Part shown: positions 8,687 through 46,955 of the stretch, piece after piece | Layout of the letters: each line of letters opens with the position of its first letter | Position numbering within the stretch: the first letter of the stretch is position 1 | DNA from: an uncultured Eggerthellaceae bacterium | GTDB taxonomy: Bacteria; Actinomycetota; Coriobacteriia; Coriobacteriales; Eggerthellaceae | DNA length: 64,000 nucleotides | Direction: 5' to 3' | Assembly (NCBI GenBank): GCA_903789375.1 | Contig: CAIFEB010000004.1 | Span: 1 to 64,000, forward strand | Notes under the pieces: generated by a model | Told to the model about the DNA's origin: nothing | What the model saw: only the letters and a program-made list of their open reading frames with translations | The model's database searches: none | Position numbers and translations under genes: made by a program

Positions 8687-9553
8687 CTAGCGCAGCGTCA
8701 CGCCTTCGGGCAGCGTGATCTTCGACAGGTCGATGTCGTCATCGTCGTCATCCGACGAGCGCTTCGCCTCGGGGCGCGGGGCGCGGCGCTCGACTTCCTC
8801 GCGGCCGAACACGCGCGCGAACGGCTCTTCGAACGCCCGCGGAACGGCGAACGCCACGGTGCCGATGGCGCCGGGATGCGCGTCGAGCCATTCCTTGAAC
8901 AGCCCCGTGACCTGGCCGGGATCGAAGCCCTGGCGCCCGCAAGCGAACGCGCCCACGATGAGCGCCTCCACCCCGTTGGCCGCGGCGATGGACAGCAGCG
9001 TCTCGATGCGGTTCTTCAGGCATTCGTCGCATTCGGCCTCGGAGCGGTGGTTCTCAAGCGCGCGGGAGCGGTTGGGCTCGGGCAGCGCGATGACGTCGGC
9101 GCGGCGCACCTCGCCGTTGTGCGTGAACACGATGTCGGGCAGGTAGAGCGCGCGGTCGGTGAACAGCTGACCCGACGCGTAGCCGCGGTTGCCCGCATAG
9201 TACAGGCGCCGGCAACCCAAAAGCACCGGATAGAGGTTGCTGTCCGCGCAGAGCACCTGTTCGGGCCCGAAGGCGCCATCTTCGTACGAGCCGCCCGGGC
9301 GGGTGAACGAGCACGGGTCGACGACGCAGACCTTGCCCTCGACCTGCAGGGAGAATAGCTCGCGCGGAGCGAAACGCGTGGTCACGAACGTCTTCGTCTC
9401 CGAAAACGGCGCCTCGTGGAGCTCGAGCGAGCGCCCGTCACCATCCTCGTACACGTGCGCTGCGTCGATCGACGCGCGCGTGTCCGCCTCGAAGGCGCCC
9501 TTCATCAGCGCCAGATGACTCTGTGCCTCGGCCTTTCGCTGTTCGCGATCCAT
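8687..9553 (-). CDS. TIGR02452 family protein (microbial PARG-like macrodomain)
   Basis: A 288-residue protein resembling bacterial poly(ADP-ribose) glycohydrolase-type macrodomains. Family features are the RPGGSYEDGAFGPEQ segment aligned with the PARG signature, YLPDIVFTHNGE, and ALIVGAFACGRQGFDP near the end. The signature is altered: the third Gly of GGG is Ser, and the QEE triad reads PEQ, so the usual catalytic Glu position appears to be Gln. Activity is therefore doubtful. It ends in an Asp-rich tail (seven D in a short run). The ATG at 9553 follows AAGGAGGACCGC. It stands alone between two terminators, so its partner process is unknown. Confidence 0.75.
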   Translation of the reverse strand: MDREQRKAEAQSHLALMKGAFEADTRASIDAAHVYEDGDGRSLELHEAPFSETKTFVTTRFAPRELFSLQVEGKVCVVDPCSFTRPGGSYEDGAFGPEQVLCADSNLYPVLLGCRRLYYAGNRGYASGQLFTDRALYLPDIVFTHNGEVRRADVIALPEPNRSRALENHRSEAECDECLKNRIETLLSIAAANGVEALIVGAFACGRQGFDPGQVTGLFKEWLDAHPGAIGTVAFAVPRAFEEPFARVFGREEVERRAPRPEAKRSSDDDDDDIDLSKITLPEGVTLR

Positions 9554-31419: not shown

Positions 31420-32451
31420 CTATTCCGCAGCCTGCGCAGCCGCTTCCGCACCACGCGCACGGTCGGCGGCCACCTCCTGCGCGATGACGCCGGCCACGTC
31501 CTCGCGCACGATGCGCGCCGTCGTGAGCACGCCGTTCTTCACCGCTTCGGCGTTCGATGAGCCATGCCCCACGAGCAGGGCGCCCTTGACACCCAGGAGC
31601 GGCGCGCCGCCGAATGTGTCGGGGTTGACGCTCTTCTTCAGGTCGGACAGCCCGCCCATCATCGTGGCGGCGCCGAGCTTCGTGAGCGCGGACTTGGTCA
31701 TGATGCGCTTGATCTCGCCGAACAGCACCTTCGCCGTGCCCTCGATCGTCTTCAGGCAGACGTTTCCGGTGAAGCCGTCGCAGACGATGACGTCGTAGGT
31801 GCCCGCCATGACGTCGCGGCCCTCGGCGTTGCCGGCGAAGGCCGGCAGCTCGCTTTTCAGCAGGGCGTACGTTTCCTGGGCGAACTTGGAGCCCTTCGTC
31901 TCCTCCTCGCCGATGTTCAGCAGAGCCACGCGCGGGTCGGACACGCCGACGATGCGCTCGGTGAAGATCTGCGCCATGCGGGCGAACTGCAAAAGGTACT
32001 CCGGCTTGCAGTCGGCGTTGGCGCCCACGTCGCACATGACGACCGGCTTGGAGGGACACGGCACGATGGTGGCGAGCGCCGGACGCGCGACGCCCTTGAT
32101 GCGGCCCATGACGAGCGTGCCCGCGGCCAGGCAGGCGCCGGTCGAGCCGGCCGAGAAGAATCCCTGGGCCTGTTCTTCCTTCACCAGCCGGCAGCCCACG
32201 ACGATCGACGAGTCCTTCTTCTTGCGCACCGCGTTGGCGGGGTGTTCGCCCATCGTGATGACCTGGGTGGTCGCGCGTGCTGTGCAGCGCTCGTGGGACG
32301 CGGCGAACGGCTCCACCACGTCGGCGGGGCCGCACAGCACGATGCTCACGTCATCCGTCTGGGCAAGCGCCTTGTCGCAGCCTTCGAGCACCACGCCGGG
32401 CGCGTTGTCGCCGCCGAGCGCGTCGACCGCGACCGTAACCATGTCCGACAT
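31420..32451 (-). CDS. plsX: Phosphate acyltransferase PlsX
   Basis: 343 residues. It converts acyl-ACP to acyl-phosphate for phospholipid synthesis by PlsY. The N-terminal VAVDALGGDNAPG, FSAGSTGACLAAG, DVGANADCKPEYLLQFA and DGFTGNVCLKTIEG blocks are diagnostic. Gene order rpmF-plsX-rnc is common, although acpP is missing here. AAAGGAGGG precedes the ATG. The 283 bases between plsX and rnc hold no gene. Confidence 0.96.
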   Translation of the reverse strand: MSDMVTVAVDALGGDNAPGVVLEGCDKALAQTDDVSIVLCGPADVVEPFAASHERCTARATTQVITMGEHPANAVRKKKDSSIVVGCRLVKEEQAQGFFSAGSTGACLAAGTLVMGRIKGVARPALATIVPCPSKPVVMCDVGANADCKPEYLLQFARMAQIFTERIVGVSDPRVALLNIGEEETKGSKFAQETYALLKSELPAFAGNAEGRDVMAGTYDVIVCDGFTGNVCLKTIEGTAKVLFGEIKRIMTKSALTKLGAATMMGGLSDLKKSVNPDTFGGAPLLGVKGALLVGHGSSNAEAVKNGVLTTARIVREDVAGVIAQEVAADRARGAEAAAQAAE

Positions 32452-32472
32452 TCGAACCCTCCTTTACAAAAG

Positions 32473-32507
32473 AAGCCTCCCGCCCAAACTGCTGGTGCGG
32501 GAGGCTT
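32473..32507 (-). terminator. Terminator or attenuator between rpmF and plsX
   Basis: AAGCCTCCCGC (32473-32483) pairs perfectly with GCGGGAGGCTT (32497-32507). On the minus strand CTTTTGT follows, so part of the rpmF transcript should stop here, giving more L32 than PlsX. Confidence 0.78.
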
Positions 32508-32538
32508 TTCCATGCGTTGGAACGATGATCGCCGACGG

Positions 32539-32718
32539 TTATTCCGTCTCGATGACCTCGCGATCCTTGTAGTAGCCGCAGTTCGGGCACACGCGATGCG
32601 GAAGCTTCACCTCGCCGCACTGCGGGCACACGGAACGCGACGGCGCGTCGATGCGGTCGTGCGAACTCCGACGGGTATGCGTACGAATACGGCCCATGCG
32701 TTGTTTAGGTACAGCCAT
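32539..32718 (-). CDS. rpmF: 50S ribosomal protein bL32
   Basis: A 59-residue ORF. It starts MAVPKQRMGRIRTHTRRSSH, the L32 N-terminus, and has two zinc-knuckle pairs, CPQC and CPNC, so it is the zinc-binding (C+) form. The stop is TAA at 32539-32541. It lies directly upstream of plsX, a conserved gene pair in bacteria. Confidence 0.96.
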   Translation of the reverse strand: MAVPKQRMGRIRTHTRRSSHDRIDAPSRSVCPQCGEVKLPHRVCPNCGYYKDREVIETE

Positions 32719-32784
32719 GTCTCTCTATCTCCTTCGCTAAGCCGCTTCGCGGCGCATTGATGATTCACAAACATGCGAGGTGAT

Positions 32785-32813
32785 ATACTATCAAACCAAC
32801 CTCATCTGCGCAA
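32785..32813 (-). promoter_or_regulatory. rpmF-plsX promoter
   Basis: TTGCGC (32808-32813, minus strand), a 17-base spacer and TAGTAT (32785-32790) give a reasonable promoter about 67 bases before rpmF. The same A+T-rich patch reads TTCACA-16-TACTAT on the plus strand and may drive the divergent membrane protein gene. Confidence 0.55.
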
Positions 32814-32953
32814 TCGCCGCACAGAGCATTCACAATTATCGCGTGACCTGCGCGCTGGGGCCCCGATGCGCTTCGCAAAGAGATCCGCACTGCGCGATGC
32901 GTCGAAGCAACGCACGCGTATGACGACGGAACGACCTCCTCCGGAAAGGATCC

Positions 32954-33598
32954 ATGATGTCCGCACAACCGAACCCCCGCCCCGCCCCCACGACAGCCGA
33001 CGAAACCGGCGCGGAGCACGTCGCTGCCGCCACCGCTAAGCAGCCTGATGGCGTGACCGCGCCCGCCGTCCCGGCAACGAGCCAGCGCGATGACGCGAAA
33101 ACGCCCCGCACCCGCGGCCAGCGCGCACGTTCCAAAGCCCAGCACGTCGCCGGCTGGACGCGGCTCGTCGCGGGCCTCCCCGCCATCGCCCTGTTCGTAT
33201 GCTCGGTCGTTTTGGTAGTTCGCACGACGGTGAGCGCGTTCGAGGCCACGGCGGAAGCCGCCGTCGGCAAGATCGCCGGCACCGAGCTTGCCATCGAGTA
33301 CGTTGAGTACGCCGACCTGTTCCTTCTGGCCGTCGTGCTCTACATCATGGCGCTCGGCCTGTTCACGCTGTTCATCACCGACAAAATCCCGTTGCCGAGC
33401 TGGCTTGAGTTCAACGACTTCGACGATCTGAAGGAACGCCTCGTGAGCGTCATCGTCGTCATGCTCGGCGTGTACTTCCTGGGCGTCGTGCTCAATGGCG
33501 AGCGCGGCATCGACCTGCTGTGGCTCGGACTCGCCATCGGCGCCGTCATCGCCGGCCTGACCGCCTTCGCACACCTCGTGTTCAAGGGCGGCGAATAG
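32954..33598 (+). CDS. YqhA/UPF0114 family membrane protein
   Basis: 214 residues. A charged, low-complexity N-terminal tail of about 65 residues precedes three or four membrane spans. The middle segments VEYADLFLLAVVLYIMALGLFTLFI and WLEFNDFDDLKERLVSVIVVML match the UPF0114 pattern (a DLFLL span, then a conserved D-DLK motif). Function of the family is not established. The long Pro/Ala-rich N-tail is unlike the short E. coli YqhA. GGAAAGGA precedes the ATG pair at 32954 and 32957. Confidence 0.82.
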   Translation: MMSAQPNPRPAPTTADETGAEHVAAATAKQPDGVTAPAVPATSQRDDAKTPRTRGQRARSKAQHVAGWTRLVAGLPAIALFVCSVVLVVRTTVSAFEATAEAAVGKIAGTELAIEYVEYADLFLLAVVLYIMALGLFTLFITDKIPLPSWLEFNDFDDLKERLVSVIVVMLGVYFLGVVLNGERGIDLLWLGLAIGAVIAGLTAFAHLVFKGGE

Positions 33599-43416: not shown

Positions 43417-44067
43417 CTACCGATCGCGTGCCTGCCCGTCGGGGCCCTTGCTGGCCGAACCGTCAAGATCAAGGCGAAGCGCCTGCGCGATGAGGTCTTC
43501 TAAAAGCTCATCGGGCGCATCCGGATTCTTCCGGACATAGCCGACCAGCCCCACTACGAGCAGATAGAACGTTTCGTACACGTGGTCGATCTGCTGGTAG
43601 TGAAACTGAGCGTACTCTGCGGCGGTGGTATCGGTGAGATACCGCGCGAGCCGCGACGCCGTGAGCGAGATGAACTTCAGGTACAGACCCGCGTTCTCGC
43701 TGTTGACCATGCTCCAACGGAACGGCTCGGAATCGAACACGCCCCGCCTGAGCATCTTCACGCAGGAGACGAGCGCTCCTCTGACATCCCCGCGGACGCG
43801 CGACTCGTTCCAAAGCCGCACCATCTCGACGAAATCCTCGACGTAGGAATCGAGAACCGCCTGCGTGACGTCCTCCTTGCTGGAGAAGTAATGGTAGAAC
43901 AGGCTGCGCGTCACGCCGACCCGCTCGGTGATGTCCTTGACCGTGGTGTTGGCAAGACCCTGGGCGTCGTAAAGCTCGCGCGCTGCCTCGACGATTTCGG
44001 CGCGACGCTGGACGCTCTGCGCCGACAGCTTCGTACCGGAGTTCGCACCAAGATCCGTGCCTGCCAT
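43417..44067 (-). CDS. TetR-family transcriptional regulator
   Basis: 216 residues. The N-terminal helix-turn-helix reads RRAEIVEAARELYDAQGLANTTVKDITERVGVTRSLFYHYFSSKEDV (about 21-67), a textbook TetR domain. The ligand domain is not assignable. A perfect 6-bp inverted repeat overlaps its own -35 box, indicating autorepression. The DUF5692 membrane gene downstream is the likely target. AAAGGAGTG precedes the ATG. Confidence 0.93.
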   Translation of the reverse strand: MAGTDLGANSGTKLSAQSVQRRAEIVEAARELYDAQGLANTTVKDITERVGVTRSLFYHYFSSKEDVTQAVLDSYVEDFVEMVRLWNESRVRGDVRGALVSCVKMLRRGVFDSEPFRWSMVNSENAGLYLKFISLTASRLARYLTDTTAAEYAQFHYQQIDHVYETFYLLVVGLVGYVRKNPDAPDELLEDLIAQALRLDLDGSASKGPDGQARDR

Positions 44068-44115
44068 GGACGATTCACTCCTTTCGCTTCCGATGAACGA
44101 TTCGATGATGGCGTC

Positions 44116-44146
44116 ATACTATCTTCACAATTGACATTGAGTCAAT
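44116..44146 (-). promoter_or_regulatory. tetR promoter with overlapping operator
   Basis: On the minus strand TTGACT (44140-44145), an 18-base spacer and TAGTAT (44116-44121) form a promoter. The palindrome ATTGACATTGAGTCAAT (44130-44146; arms ATTGAC/GTCAAT) covers the -35, as expected for a TetR autorepression site. Confidence 0.75.
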
Positions 44147-44536
44147 GAGCACTTTATAGGTAAGCGTCAACGGATTTTATCGCGCACGAACTGGTGCGAT
44201 GTGACGCTCTGCCGAGGTGCGTCAACCGGTGCGGCAGTGAGCGGCAGTTTGGGACTGGTGAGCTGTCGAGAGCCGTCGATGGCGCGCGGAAGCGCTGGCG
44301 GAAGCGGGCGGCCCGCAGGCGGCGAGTGATCTCCGCTGGCGGAAGCGGGCGCGGCGATAGCTGGCCGGGCTGGCTGTTGTCGTGCATCCCCTATCGCCAC
44401 CATCGCGCGCGGCAGGCGACGAGCGGTCGCTGTTGGCAGACGTAGGCGCGGCGAACATGCCTCAGACGCGCGCGGCAGGCGGCGCACGGTCGCCGTGCAC
44501 TCCGGGAACAGCGATTCAACCGACAAATGAGCAAAC

Positions 44537-44591
44537 GGATGGATGGACGGACGGCCGGACGAACGAACGAATAAACAAACAAACAAACACT
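44537..44591. repeat. Tetranucleotide repeat tract
   Basis: A run with 4-base periodicity drifts from GGAT through GGAC and GAAC to AAAC units (GGATGGATGGACGGAC ... AAACAAACAAACAAACAC). Such tracts are slippage-prone; no gene reads through it convincingly. Confidence 0.85.
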
Positions 44592-44634
44592 TAGACGATC
44601 GGTTCGGATGTCCACGAAACACATGCTGCGGAAG

Positions 44635-44690
44635 CCCATCCATATTCTGGAAATTTTGCCGAATCCGGGCATTTCTTTCAGAGTTTGGAT
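44635..44690 (-). repeat. Palindromic repeat element, copy 1
   Basis: Read on the minus strand this 56-base element matches copy 2 at about 80 percent by eye. Shared blocks are CCAAACTCTG, GGATTCG and TTTCCAGAAT-TGGATGG. It is itself an imperfect hairpin. Confidence 0.7.
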
Positions 44691-44785
44691 TATCTGTATC
44701 TGTGTCTAAATCATGATCAAGCGGCCACGAACGCCGCTGCTCCCGCAGTGCAGGATCCGCATAGCGTATAGTCGGCAAATGCGCT

Positions 44786-44814
44786 GTTAAATACTATTTT
44801 ATTATCGCTATAAT
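44786..44814 (+). promoter_or_regulatory. Orphan promoter-like element
   Basis: A perfect TATAAT (44809-44814) lies in an A+T-rich island, with a weak GTTAAA (44786-44791) 17 bases upstream. It points into the repeat region, where no gene is recognisable, so it could start a non-coding transcript or be chance. Confidence 0.35.
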
Positions 44815-44890
44815 ATGAGCAGGGTTGCTGAGTCGGTTGCAATGCGAACAATTCCGGCTCAGACCGGCTCGACGTCAATCCAGAAACTGC

Positions 44891-44963
44891 GAAATCCAGC
44901 GGCTAACTTTCCAAACTCTGGAATAAATGACAGGATTCGTCATTATTTCCAGAATTTGGATGG
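44891..44963 (+). repeat. Palindromic repeat element, copy 2
   Basis: A flank AATCCAGCGGCTAACTTT leads into a 49-base hairpin. The left arm (44911-44931) and right arm (44939-44959) match at 18 of 21 positions around a 7-base loop AGGATTC. The shared flank recurs at copy 4. Confidence 0.75.
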
Positions 44964-45096
44964 CGCTGACGGGCTGGTAGCGCCCGGACAACGGACGCAA
45001 AGCCCGCTCCCCCGAGGCTTTTTACACAACATCCGTGCGTACCACCGCCACAACATCTGTGCGCACCACCGCCGTGACCTCGGCAGGTCTCGATTT

Positions 45097-45190
45097 CCCC
45101 AAGAAACGCAAATCCCGCCAACGAGAATGCGATTGGGCCCCAAGTTACAGCAATAACGGCAATCTCGGGCGAAAAGTCCATTTCTTGGTG
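45097..45190 (-). repeat. Palindromic repeat element, copy 3
   Basis: Bounded by CCAAGAAA and TTTCTTGG arms. On the minus strand it contains GATTGCCGTTATTGCTGTAA followed by CTTGGGG, nearly identical to copy 4 at 45435-45461. Confidence 0.6.
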
Positions 45191-45390
45191 ATCGTCCGAG
45201 CCCGCGATGGGCGGCAGCTGCTATCCCCTGCGCCACCACCGCGCTCTTCAAAGTGATGATATTTGATAAATCGTGAATTATGCCTGATAGTTTTTATTTT
45301 CGTATTTGCATGTATTCACTTCCGGCGAATGAATCTCTCGTCGAAGCGTTGTAGCGGTCGCTTCCCGAAGAGGACAACACCAACAAACGC

Positions 45391-45466
45391 AGATTCCGGC
45401 GGCTAACTTACCAACCAACGTCGAAAGCGGCACGGATTGCCGTATTTTCTGTAACTTGGGGATTTC
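45391..45466 (+). repeat. Palindromic repeat element, copy 4
   Basis: Carries the ATTCCGGCGGCTAACTTACC flank of copy 2 and the GATTGCCGTATTTTCTGTAA block of copy 3. It leads directly into the 92-bp tandem repeat. Confidence 0.6.
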
Positions 45467-45850
45467 ACCGCTGCTGGATGCGAGGAGCCACGCGTTGGGG
45501 ATCCGGGGAACCGTCGCGGTCGGGAGTCGGAAAGCAACGCGTTCGGCAGCCAAGCGTCAGCGCGTAGGAATCCGGGGAGCAACGCGTCTGGGATCCGGGA
45601 AACCATCGCAATCGGGAGCCGGGAAGCGATGCGTTTGGCAGCCGAGCGTCAGCGCGTAGGGATGCGGGGTGCCATGCGTTGGGAATCCGGATACCGATGC
45701 GACAGGATTCATGCGTGCAACGCGTTGGGAATCCGGGGATTTCAACGCTGCCGGATGCGAGGGGCCACCACAGTTGCGAACCGGGAAGCGACGCGCTGTG
45801 TGGCCGGATGCCAACACAACAGGAATCCGAGAATCTACCACGACCGGAGG
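45457..45850. repeat. 92-bp degenerate tandem repeat, about four units
   Basis: A unit starting AACCGTCGCGGTCGGGAG at 45509 recurs at 45601 (AACCATCGCAATCGGGAG) with about 85 percent identity. A decayed third unit starts near 45692 and a fourth near 45768. The lead-in GGGGATTTCACCGCTGCTGG (45459-) recurs at 45736 as GGGGATTTCAACGCTGCCGG. No ORF of family character. Confidence 0.75.
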
Positions 45851-46103
45851 CTTAACACCTGGCGATGGCGCGTGGCGCGTCGGCAGCCTGGACCCGATGC
45901 ACTTGTCCGAGTGCGGCGCTGCTGCGGCAGAGACTGCGCGTCAAGCTATGCGACTGCGGCTGTCGGTCGGCGTTGCCGCGGGGGGCAGTGCAATCATCAA
46001 CACGGCTGCCCAGCGCCTGCATAGCAACCAGCCGTACAGTTGCCCCGCAATGGCGAAGCAGTCGGCAGTACGGTCGCCGCGGCGGCGCACGCTCGCGCGC
46101 CCA

Positions 46104-46955
46104 TCACACGCCGGCGGTCAGGTGCACCGCGTAGAAGACGAACCGCACGGCGAAGCAGCCGACGAGAGCGACCGCTGCGGCGCCGACGGTCCACGCCCGC
46201 CGATGCCCCTCGCTGCCGATGCCGGCAAATCCGCAGGCCACAGCCCCCGCGACGCACGCAACCACCACCGCGATCACCGCGTCGTATCCCGGCACGAGCT
46301 CAAGCGCCGACGGTTGCTGGGCGACCGTCGCAAGGCTGGCGAGCGTCGCGCGCTGCACTCCGAAGAGCACGCACATCGCAACGCCGCCGACCGCCGCCGC
46401 CCCCACCAGCGCACGCCCGCGCGCTCGCGGATCATCGATGCGCGCGCAGGCAAGCGCCGCCAGCGCGATGAGCGGCCCGGCAAAGACGGCACACGCCCAC
46501 TGCGCCGCCGGCACGTACGCTTCGTTCCAGGTCAGCACGCTCTCGACCGCATAGGCGTGCGCGACGAGCGCCACGAACACGAGCGCGGACGCCGCCGCGA
46601 CCACGCCCCATGCGCGTTTCGCCCGCCCGCGGTGCGGCCGCGGGAACGAGTACATCCAGAACGACCCCCCGAGCACGAGAAACGCCGCCGCCGAGGTGAC
46701 CTCGTTCGAAAGCGGCGACCGCCCCAAGCCGGTGAGCACGTACAGCGCGTTCGCCGGCGTTCCCAGATGGGTCGCCGACGCGATGAGCCCGGCAAGCACG
46801 CACGTCAGCGGCACCACGAGCCAATGTTCAATGCGGTTCGCCCGCGCTTCGTCCGACAGGTTCGACTCGAGCACAAGACAGAAGAACGCGACGGCGCCCG
46901 CCGGTGCGAGCGTCGTGAAGAACACGAGCGTTATCTCCTGAAGGGCGAACTGCAT
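46104..46955 (-). CDS. DmsC-like membrane anchor, second copy
   Basis: 283 residues with eight hydrophobic spans. It matches the DMSO reductase anchor family: N-terminal LVFFTTLAPAGAVAFFCLVLE, then ATHLGTPANALYVLTGLGRSPLSNEV, where the HLGxPxxAxxxLxxLxxSPLSxE pattern is diagnostic, and a C-terminal RFVFYAVHL. It would bind menaquinol and pass electrons to the iron-sulfur subunit. It is the last gene of the locus, 9 bases after the TorD-family chaperone gene. The other anchor at 47775 is a clear paralogue. Confidence 0.88.
   Translation of the reverse strand: MQFALQEITLVFFTTLAPAGAVAFFCLVLESNLSDEARANRIEHWLVVPLTCVLAGLIASATHLGTPANALYVLTGLGRSPLSNEVTSAAAFLVLGGSFWMYSFPRPHRGRAKRAWGVVAAASALVFVALVAHAYAVESVLTWNEAYVPAAQWACAVFAGPLIALAALACARIDDPRARGRALVGAAAVGGVAMCVLFGVQRATLASLATVAQQPSALELVPGYDAVIAVVVACVAGAVACGFAGIGSEGHRRAWTVGAAAVALVGCFAVRFVFYAVHLTAGV

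Follow-up and report, generated by a model that had tools for sequence, protein, structure and literature searches.

The window, that is, the whole 64,000-nucleotide stretch of DNA analyzed here, carries a cluster of related palindromic repeats, and the question that it raises is whether the cluster is the remnant of a mobile element, a structured RNA or a DNA element maintained at its locus. Bacterial intergenic repeats are usually taken for transposon debris. We analyzed the cluster together with the genome to which it belongs, a 2.43 Mb draft assembly (79 contigs, 95% complete), using simple gene calls for the neighborhoods of the repeat units. For arm centers, box offsets, target duplications and the orientation of units relative to genes, the comparison was visual, from printouts of the results.

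Organization of the repeat units in the window

The first-pass annotation had described four related palindromic copies, all of which we found within a few bases of the positions that it gave. Their grouping as four palindromes did not hold: copies 1 and 2 form one unit (W1, 44640–44959), and copies 3 and 4 form a second unit (W2, 45099–45459) in the same direction at an offset of exactly 500 bp. Copies 1 and 2 contain 54-nt inverted repeats that are 85% complementary, and copies 3 and 4 have 27 nt in common at 89%. A unit spans ~350 bp (about 320–360 bp) and has two arms of 49 bp, each composed of a pair of 22-bp sites in inverted orientation, 5 bp apart. The site is asymmetric, with a matrix consensus that is broadly CCAAnnnnYGnnAnnAAYGnC. 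Five or six sites per unit appear in the order (forward), forward-reverse, spacer, forward, forward-reverse. The features of the two units are as follows.

44640–44688: W1 left arm; site 44640–44661 (+), 5-bp gap, site 44667–44688 (–); 21.4 and 23.2 bits
44689–44879: W1 spacer, 191 bp; sequence conservation between units limited to the central box
44784–44803: W1 central AT-rich box, CTGTTAAATACTATTTTATT; conserved columns in the right register; coordinates read off the printed alignment
44880–44901 (+): W1 inner single site (M-right); 10.9 bits, offset +240 as in other units
44911–44959: W1 right arm, the former copy 2; site 44911–44932 (+), 5-bp gap, site 44938–44959 (–); 27.1 and 30.6 bits, zero mismatches to the arm pattern
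45099–45120 (+): W2 outer single site (M-left); 14.8 bits, offset –41
45140–45188: W2 left arm; site 45140–45161 (+), 5-bp gap, site 45167–45188 (–), eroded, 13 bits
45189–45379: W2 spacer, 191 bp
45284–45303: W2 central AT-rich box, CTGATAGTTTTTATTTTCGT; coordinates read off the printed alignment
45380–45401 (+): W2 inner single site (M-right); 17.8 bits, offset +240
45411–45459: W2 right arm; site 45411–45432 (+), 5-bp gap, site 45438–45459 (–); 18.0 and 24.8 bits

The W1 left arm was aligned with the left arms of five other type 1 units, and the W2 right arm with the right arms of C13, C14 and C34. Sites of at least 13 bits in the 64-kb window were confined to W1 and W2, as scored with a 22-bp matrix trained on the same units. 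Both units are among the more eroded of their family.

The repeats reported to flank the copies are also present, namely a tetranucleotide tract (44535–44589), a 24-bp tandem pair (45025–45072) and a degenerate tandem repeat of 45–47 bp and 92 bp (45474–45737). Degenerate tandem repeats with periods of 4, 10–12, 18, 24, 45–47 and 92 bp occupy positions 44260–44590 and 45474–45840. Because they resemble the degenerate tandem repeats in other long intergenic regions of the genome, we treated them as background outside the element.

A family of twelve units in one genome

A search of the same genome with copy 2 returned further arms, in pairs, with E values from 9e-17 to 2e-9, a similarity that chance would hardly produce, and searches with W2 and the copy on contig C13 revealed a sister arm type. 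Using R1, a sequence-only model of the right end, we detected twelve right ends in the genome, each with a left partner; in other words, no solitary end was found among them. The units (W1, W2, C4b, C6a, C6b, C8a, C8b, C13, C14, C20, C24 and C34) were intergenic in all 12 cases. The cluster had been proposed to belong to a dispersed repeat family, and this proved correct; confinement to this locus, which would have spoken against such a family, is not what the genome contains.

The neighbors are ordinary chromosomal genes, such as alaS, recR, uvrB and copA, together with tetR, a molybdopterin oxidoreductase gene, marR, an iron transporter gene, a helicase gene and recN/uvrB. A promoter for one kind of gene was rejected, since the neighboring genes are diverse and belong to no single class. 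Units tend to have a gene start next to their left side and a gene end next to their right side, at roughly 14 of 18 sides with simple gene calls; this tendency was noticed post hoc and is only suggestive. Among the scanned unit-bearing loci, one single 22-bp site of at least 13 bits lies outside the units (L028 8166–8187 (+)); it scores 17.9 bits and precedes the C4b left arm by 403 bp.

Spacing and helical phase of the sites

With the first left site set to 0, the outer site M-left (at least 10 bits) lies at –41 or –42 in 7/12 units and is not recognizable in the other five. The inner site M-right lies at +239 to +241 and precedes by 31 bp the right arm, which lies at +270 to +272; the exception is C24, where both are shifted by ~10 bp (inner site +250, right arm +281). 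The spacer from the left arm to the inner site measures 190–192 bp in 11 of the 12 units and 201 bp in C24. This surplus corresponds to one helical turn and is placed between the left arm and the AT-rich box. The box lies at about spacer position 94, with a distance to the inner site of 95–97 bp in all 12 units (read off the alignment), and its conservation exceeds that of shuffles.

We found that sites of the same orientation lie on one helical face, with a phase coherence of 0.978 at 10.41 bp per turn, the best of the periods scanned (9.0–12.5 bp). Because the units are related by descent, the null model randomized the underlying distances rather than the units individually; within the range 10.3–10.6 bp, a coherence as high was seen in 0 of 3001 random layouts. 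Sites on one face, and a length change, in C24, by a whole turn only, are features of a phased array of DNA-loop operators.

Conservation of arms relative to spacers

Identity between type 1 units is 93–95% in the outer half-sites and about 81% in the inner ones. The outer half-sites L5 and R3 are about 92% identical to each other in type 1, so that terminal inverted repeats are present. Spacers are near random between most units, with a mean in-register identity of 0.33 compared with 0.25 when shifted. For C13 and C14, the most similar pair, identity is 94% over the arms plus M-right and 75% over the spacer (P = 6e-6), and the arms and inner site were conserved above the spacer in all seven pairs tested (P = 5e-5 or less).

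Near-identical copies were absent among the twelve units. Recent spread is not evident, since the closest pair has already diverged by a quarter in the spacer, and recent spread therefore does not account for the conservation of the arms. The conserved arms point to selection, acting either in place or through past mobility. The suggestion of simple decayed foreign DNA fits poorly, because arms and spacings are conserved and spacers have diverged. We also rejected a degraded protein gene, given that two checked ORFs of the region had no Pfam match, and a phage or plasmid origin, with no match among phage records and plasmid matches of only 35–39 bp.

Distribution in other genomes

Neither 60 other relatives nor 139 other genomes of the family yielded a match to R1. 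With one mismatch allowed, the arm pattern identified 15 arms in this genome and did not occur in any of 399 further genomes from the class. GTDB contigs (84,980 species) and viral contigs were scanned for exact half-sites, which returned 12 and 23 stretches, respectively, none of which had an arm. No relevant account of such repeats in Eggerthella, Eggerthellaceae or Coriobacteria emerged from a literature search. The best reading of these searches, which covered genomes containing no second species of the genus, is that the element is private to its lineage.

Hairpin, inversion and mobility as alternative explanations

The palindromic arms might instead represent a family of structured RNAs or single-stranded DNA hairpins, and the hairpin ascribed to copy 2 was indeed observed, as a strong fold of single-stranded DNA (–12.7 kcal/mol, z = –5.8). 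The remaining three arms of the window fold unremarkably (z = –1.5, –0.35 and –1.8), little better than shuffles, and Rfam returned nothing at either the gathering or a relaxed threshold. Hairpin partners in type 1 matched equally well within and between units (0.735 versus 0.741 and 0.765 versus 0.753); that is, the compensatory changes whose lack had been named as evidence against such a family are lacking within type 1, the larger arm type, and the pairing excess over all types follows from the existence of two arm types. The spacing also tracks the pitch of duplex DNA. We therefore regard this explanation as very improbable, and the near-identical outer sites together with the helical pitch suggest that the DNA is recognized in its double-stranded form. 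Slightly less remote, but still improbable, is an inverton, in which a site-specific recombinase acting on the inverted arms would switch the segment. Inverted arms around about 220 bp at multiple loci, with an AT-rich center, would suit it. Nevertheless, the left and right arms of 11 of the 12 units have different 5-bp centers (by eye), spacer orientation is alike in 7/7 units with M-left, no flipped copy occurs in the assembly, and the three tyrosine recombinase genes found are all on other contigs without sites nearby.

Quite possible, if on balance doubtful, is a non-autonomous mobile element, in other words a MITE- or REPIN-like population under selection only via transposition, whose arms would be transposase sites and whose helical phase would be needed for pairing of the ends. 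Dispersal within one genome, intergenic location and two related arm types agree with it, and both transposon ends with multiple sites and phased transpososomes are of known kinds. Unit flanks are mostly unrelated, except for sequence X, which is unbroken beside the C20 unit and split in C4b by 470 bp containing the unit; the two may be a filled/empty pair, with the 470 bp larger than the unit and the boundaries inexact. However, inspection by eye of the flanks of all units showed no consistent target-site duplication, and the divergence of even the closest pair (25% in the spacer) and the lack of near-identical copies are not what such a population leads one to expect. A PF01797 search of this genome (95% complete) had no match to a Y1/RAYT transposase, and a PF00665 search found one rve transposase gene without sites nearby, which we take to be IS3-like from reading its translation. 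Nor did the genome contain end pairs with a larger spacing or a gene between the ends, and no autonomous relative was found among transposases of the two families covered (PF01797 and PF00665). Of the earlier suggestion of a MITE- or REP-like repeat, the dispersed family stands, a strict REP does not (no RAYT and no covariation), and a MITE is unproven.

A Mu- or Tn7-type transposon was rejected, as the single rve gene has no sites nearby. Sequence X (~165 bp; L032 3707–3871, and L028 8472–8540 plus 9011–9101) was detected at no units other than C20 and C4b, and a part of it also lies inverted near L028 8073–8104.

A looped DNA–protein complex as a candidate function

We consider the chances about even that each unit acts in cis as a DNA element on which a looped DNA–protein complex forms, and that it is kept by selection at each locus. 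This reading is favored by the identical site order in twelve units without a solitary end, by a spacer whose length is kept, with a whole-turn change in C24, while its sequence is near random, and by the phase coherence, the conserved box and the conservation of arms above the spacer. Conserved geometry and phase are observed directly; the protein, the loop and the use of the loop we infer from them. A putative sequence-specific protein would recognize the asymmetric 22-bp sequence and bind both clusters, possibly by means of two parts that each read DNA, like those of AraC-type regulators or transposases. The clusters, ~26 turns apart on one helical face, would be joined into a loop holding the central AT-rich box, which the loop would present or close. 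The elements might have spread long ago within the lineage, perhaps as a transposon derivative, and would now be selected in place as a regulatory or chromosome-organizing element.

Several observations weigh against the looped complex. There is no candidate protein and no single class of neighboring genes, and five units lack a recognizable M-left. A consensus promoter scan was negative at the W1 box and gave a single marginal site (9 of 12) that overlaps the W2 box. Moreover, arm conservation could also reflect past selection for mobility, or gene conversion. A more specific proposal, which we put forward tentatively and with some doubt, is that the units are lineage-private chromosomal architectural elements, twelve loops whose phase is selected in place and which organize or co-regulate the chromosome via one dedicated protein. 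A spacing fixed to 1–2 bp, or to a whole turn, around a spacer of free sequence is natural evidence for a DNA loop, and the binding protein, if found, would tell parasites from working parts of the chromosome. Searches for conserved geometry, in addition to conserved sequence, may also bring to light elements that are split or overlooked when repeats are sought in the ordinary way.

Comparison with known systems

Phased looping by the AraC araO2–araI, Lac and Gal operators provides precedents alongside transposition complexes. Like these operators, the units have several sites on one face, some 200–270 bp apart, and tolerate whole-turn changes; the operators, however, serve one promoter at one locus, whereas the twelve units adjoin unrelated genes. 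The ends of Mu and Tn7 each contain several 22-bp transposase sites, and Mu has an internal control element. The clusters likewise have several 22-bp sites, but no transposase or cargo lies between them, there is no consistent target duplication, and they are not mirror images.

REPINs are inverted pairs with less conserved spacers (PMC3116915). The units resemble REPINs and REP-RAYT systems in having a pair of palindromic ends, inverted and set at a constant distance, around a less conserved spacer (PMC3116915, PMC8049555), and REPINs in being dispersed in extragenic space and lineage-specific. REPINs, however, measure about 70–110 bp and have hairpins with compensatory changes and a RAYT gene, whereas the units measure about 320–360 bp, show no pairing covariation in the larger type, number only 12 copies and include extra single sites and a central box, and no RAYT was found with them. 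The length periodicity of Paramecium IESs has been read as looping; there too, length is tied to the DNA helical repeat and the interior sequence decays (PMC3464196). IESs are eukaryotic, excised and of many lengths, whereas the units described here share a single length, exceeded by one turn in C24, and contain internal sites that are conserved.

A separate repeat array on contig C8

Contig C8 contains a further 36-bp repeat, GTTTGACCCCGGTCYGAAAACCGACCGCCATTCAAC, in ten copies of one orientation, mostly 340–460 bp apart (L153 6273–7488 and L068 3839–6640, corresponding to 32272–33487 and 43838–46639 of the contig). Neither 40 relatives nor viral contigs yielded a copy of the repeat, and the three tyrosine recombinase genes detected in the genome all lie on contigs other than this one. 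Between the copies lie small ORFs or gene fragments, including a DUF3784 protein, a phage scaffold fragment, a tRNA-Gln call and the C8b unit, and judged by this layout the repeats look like a cassette array.
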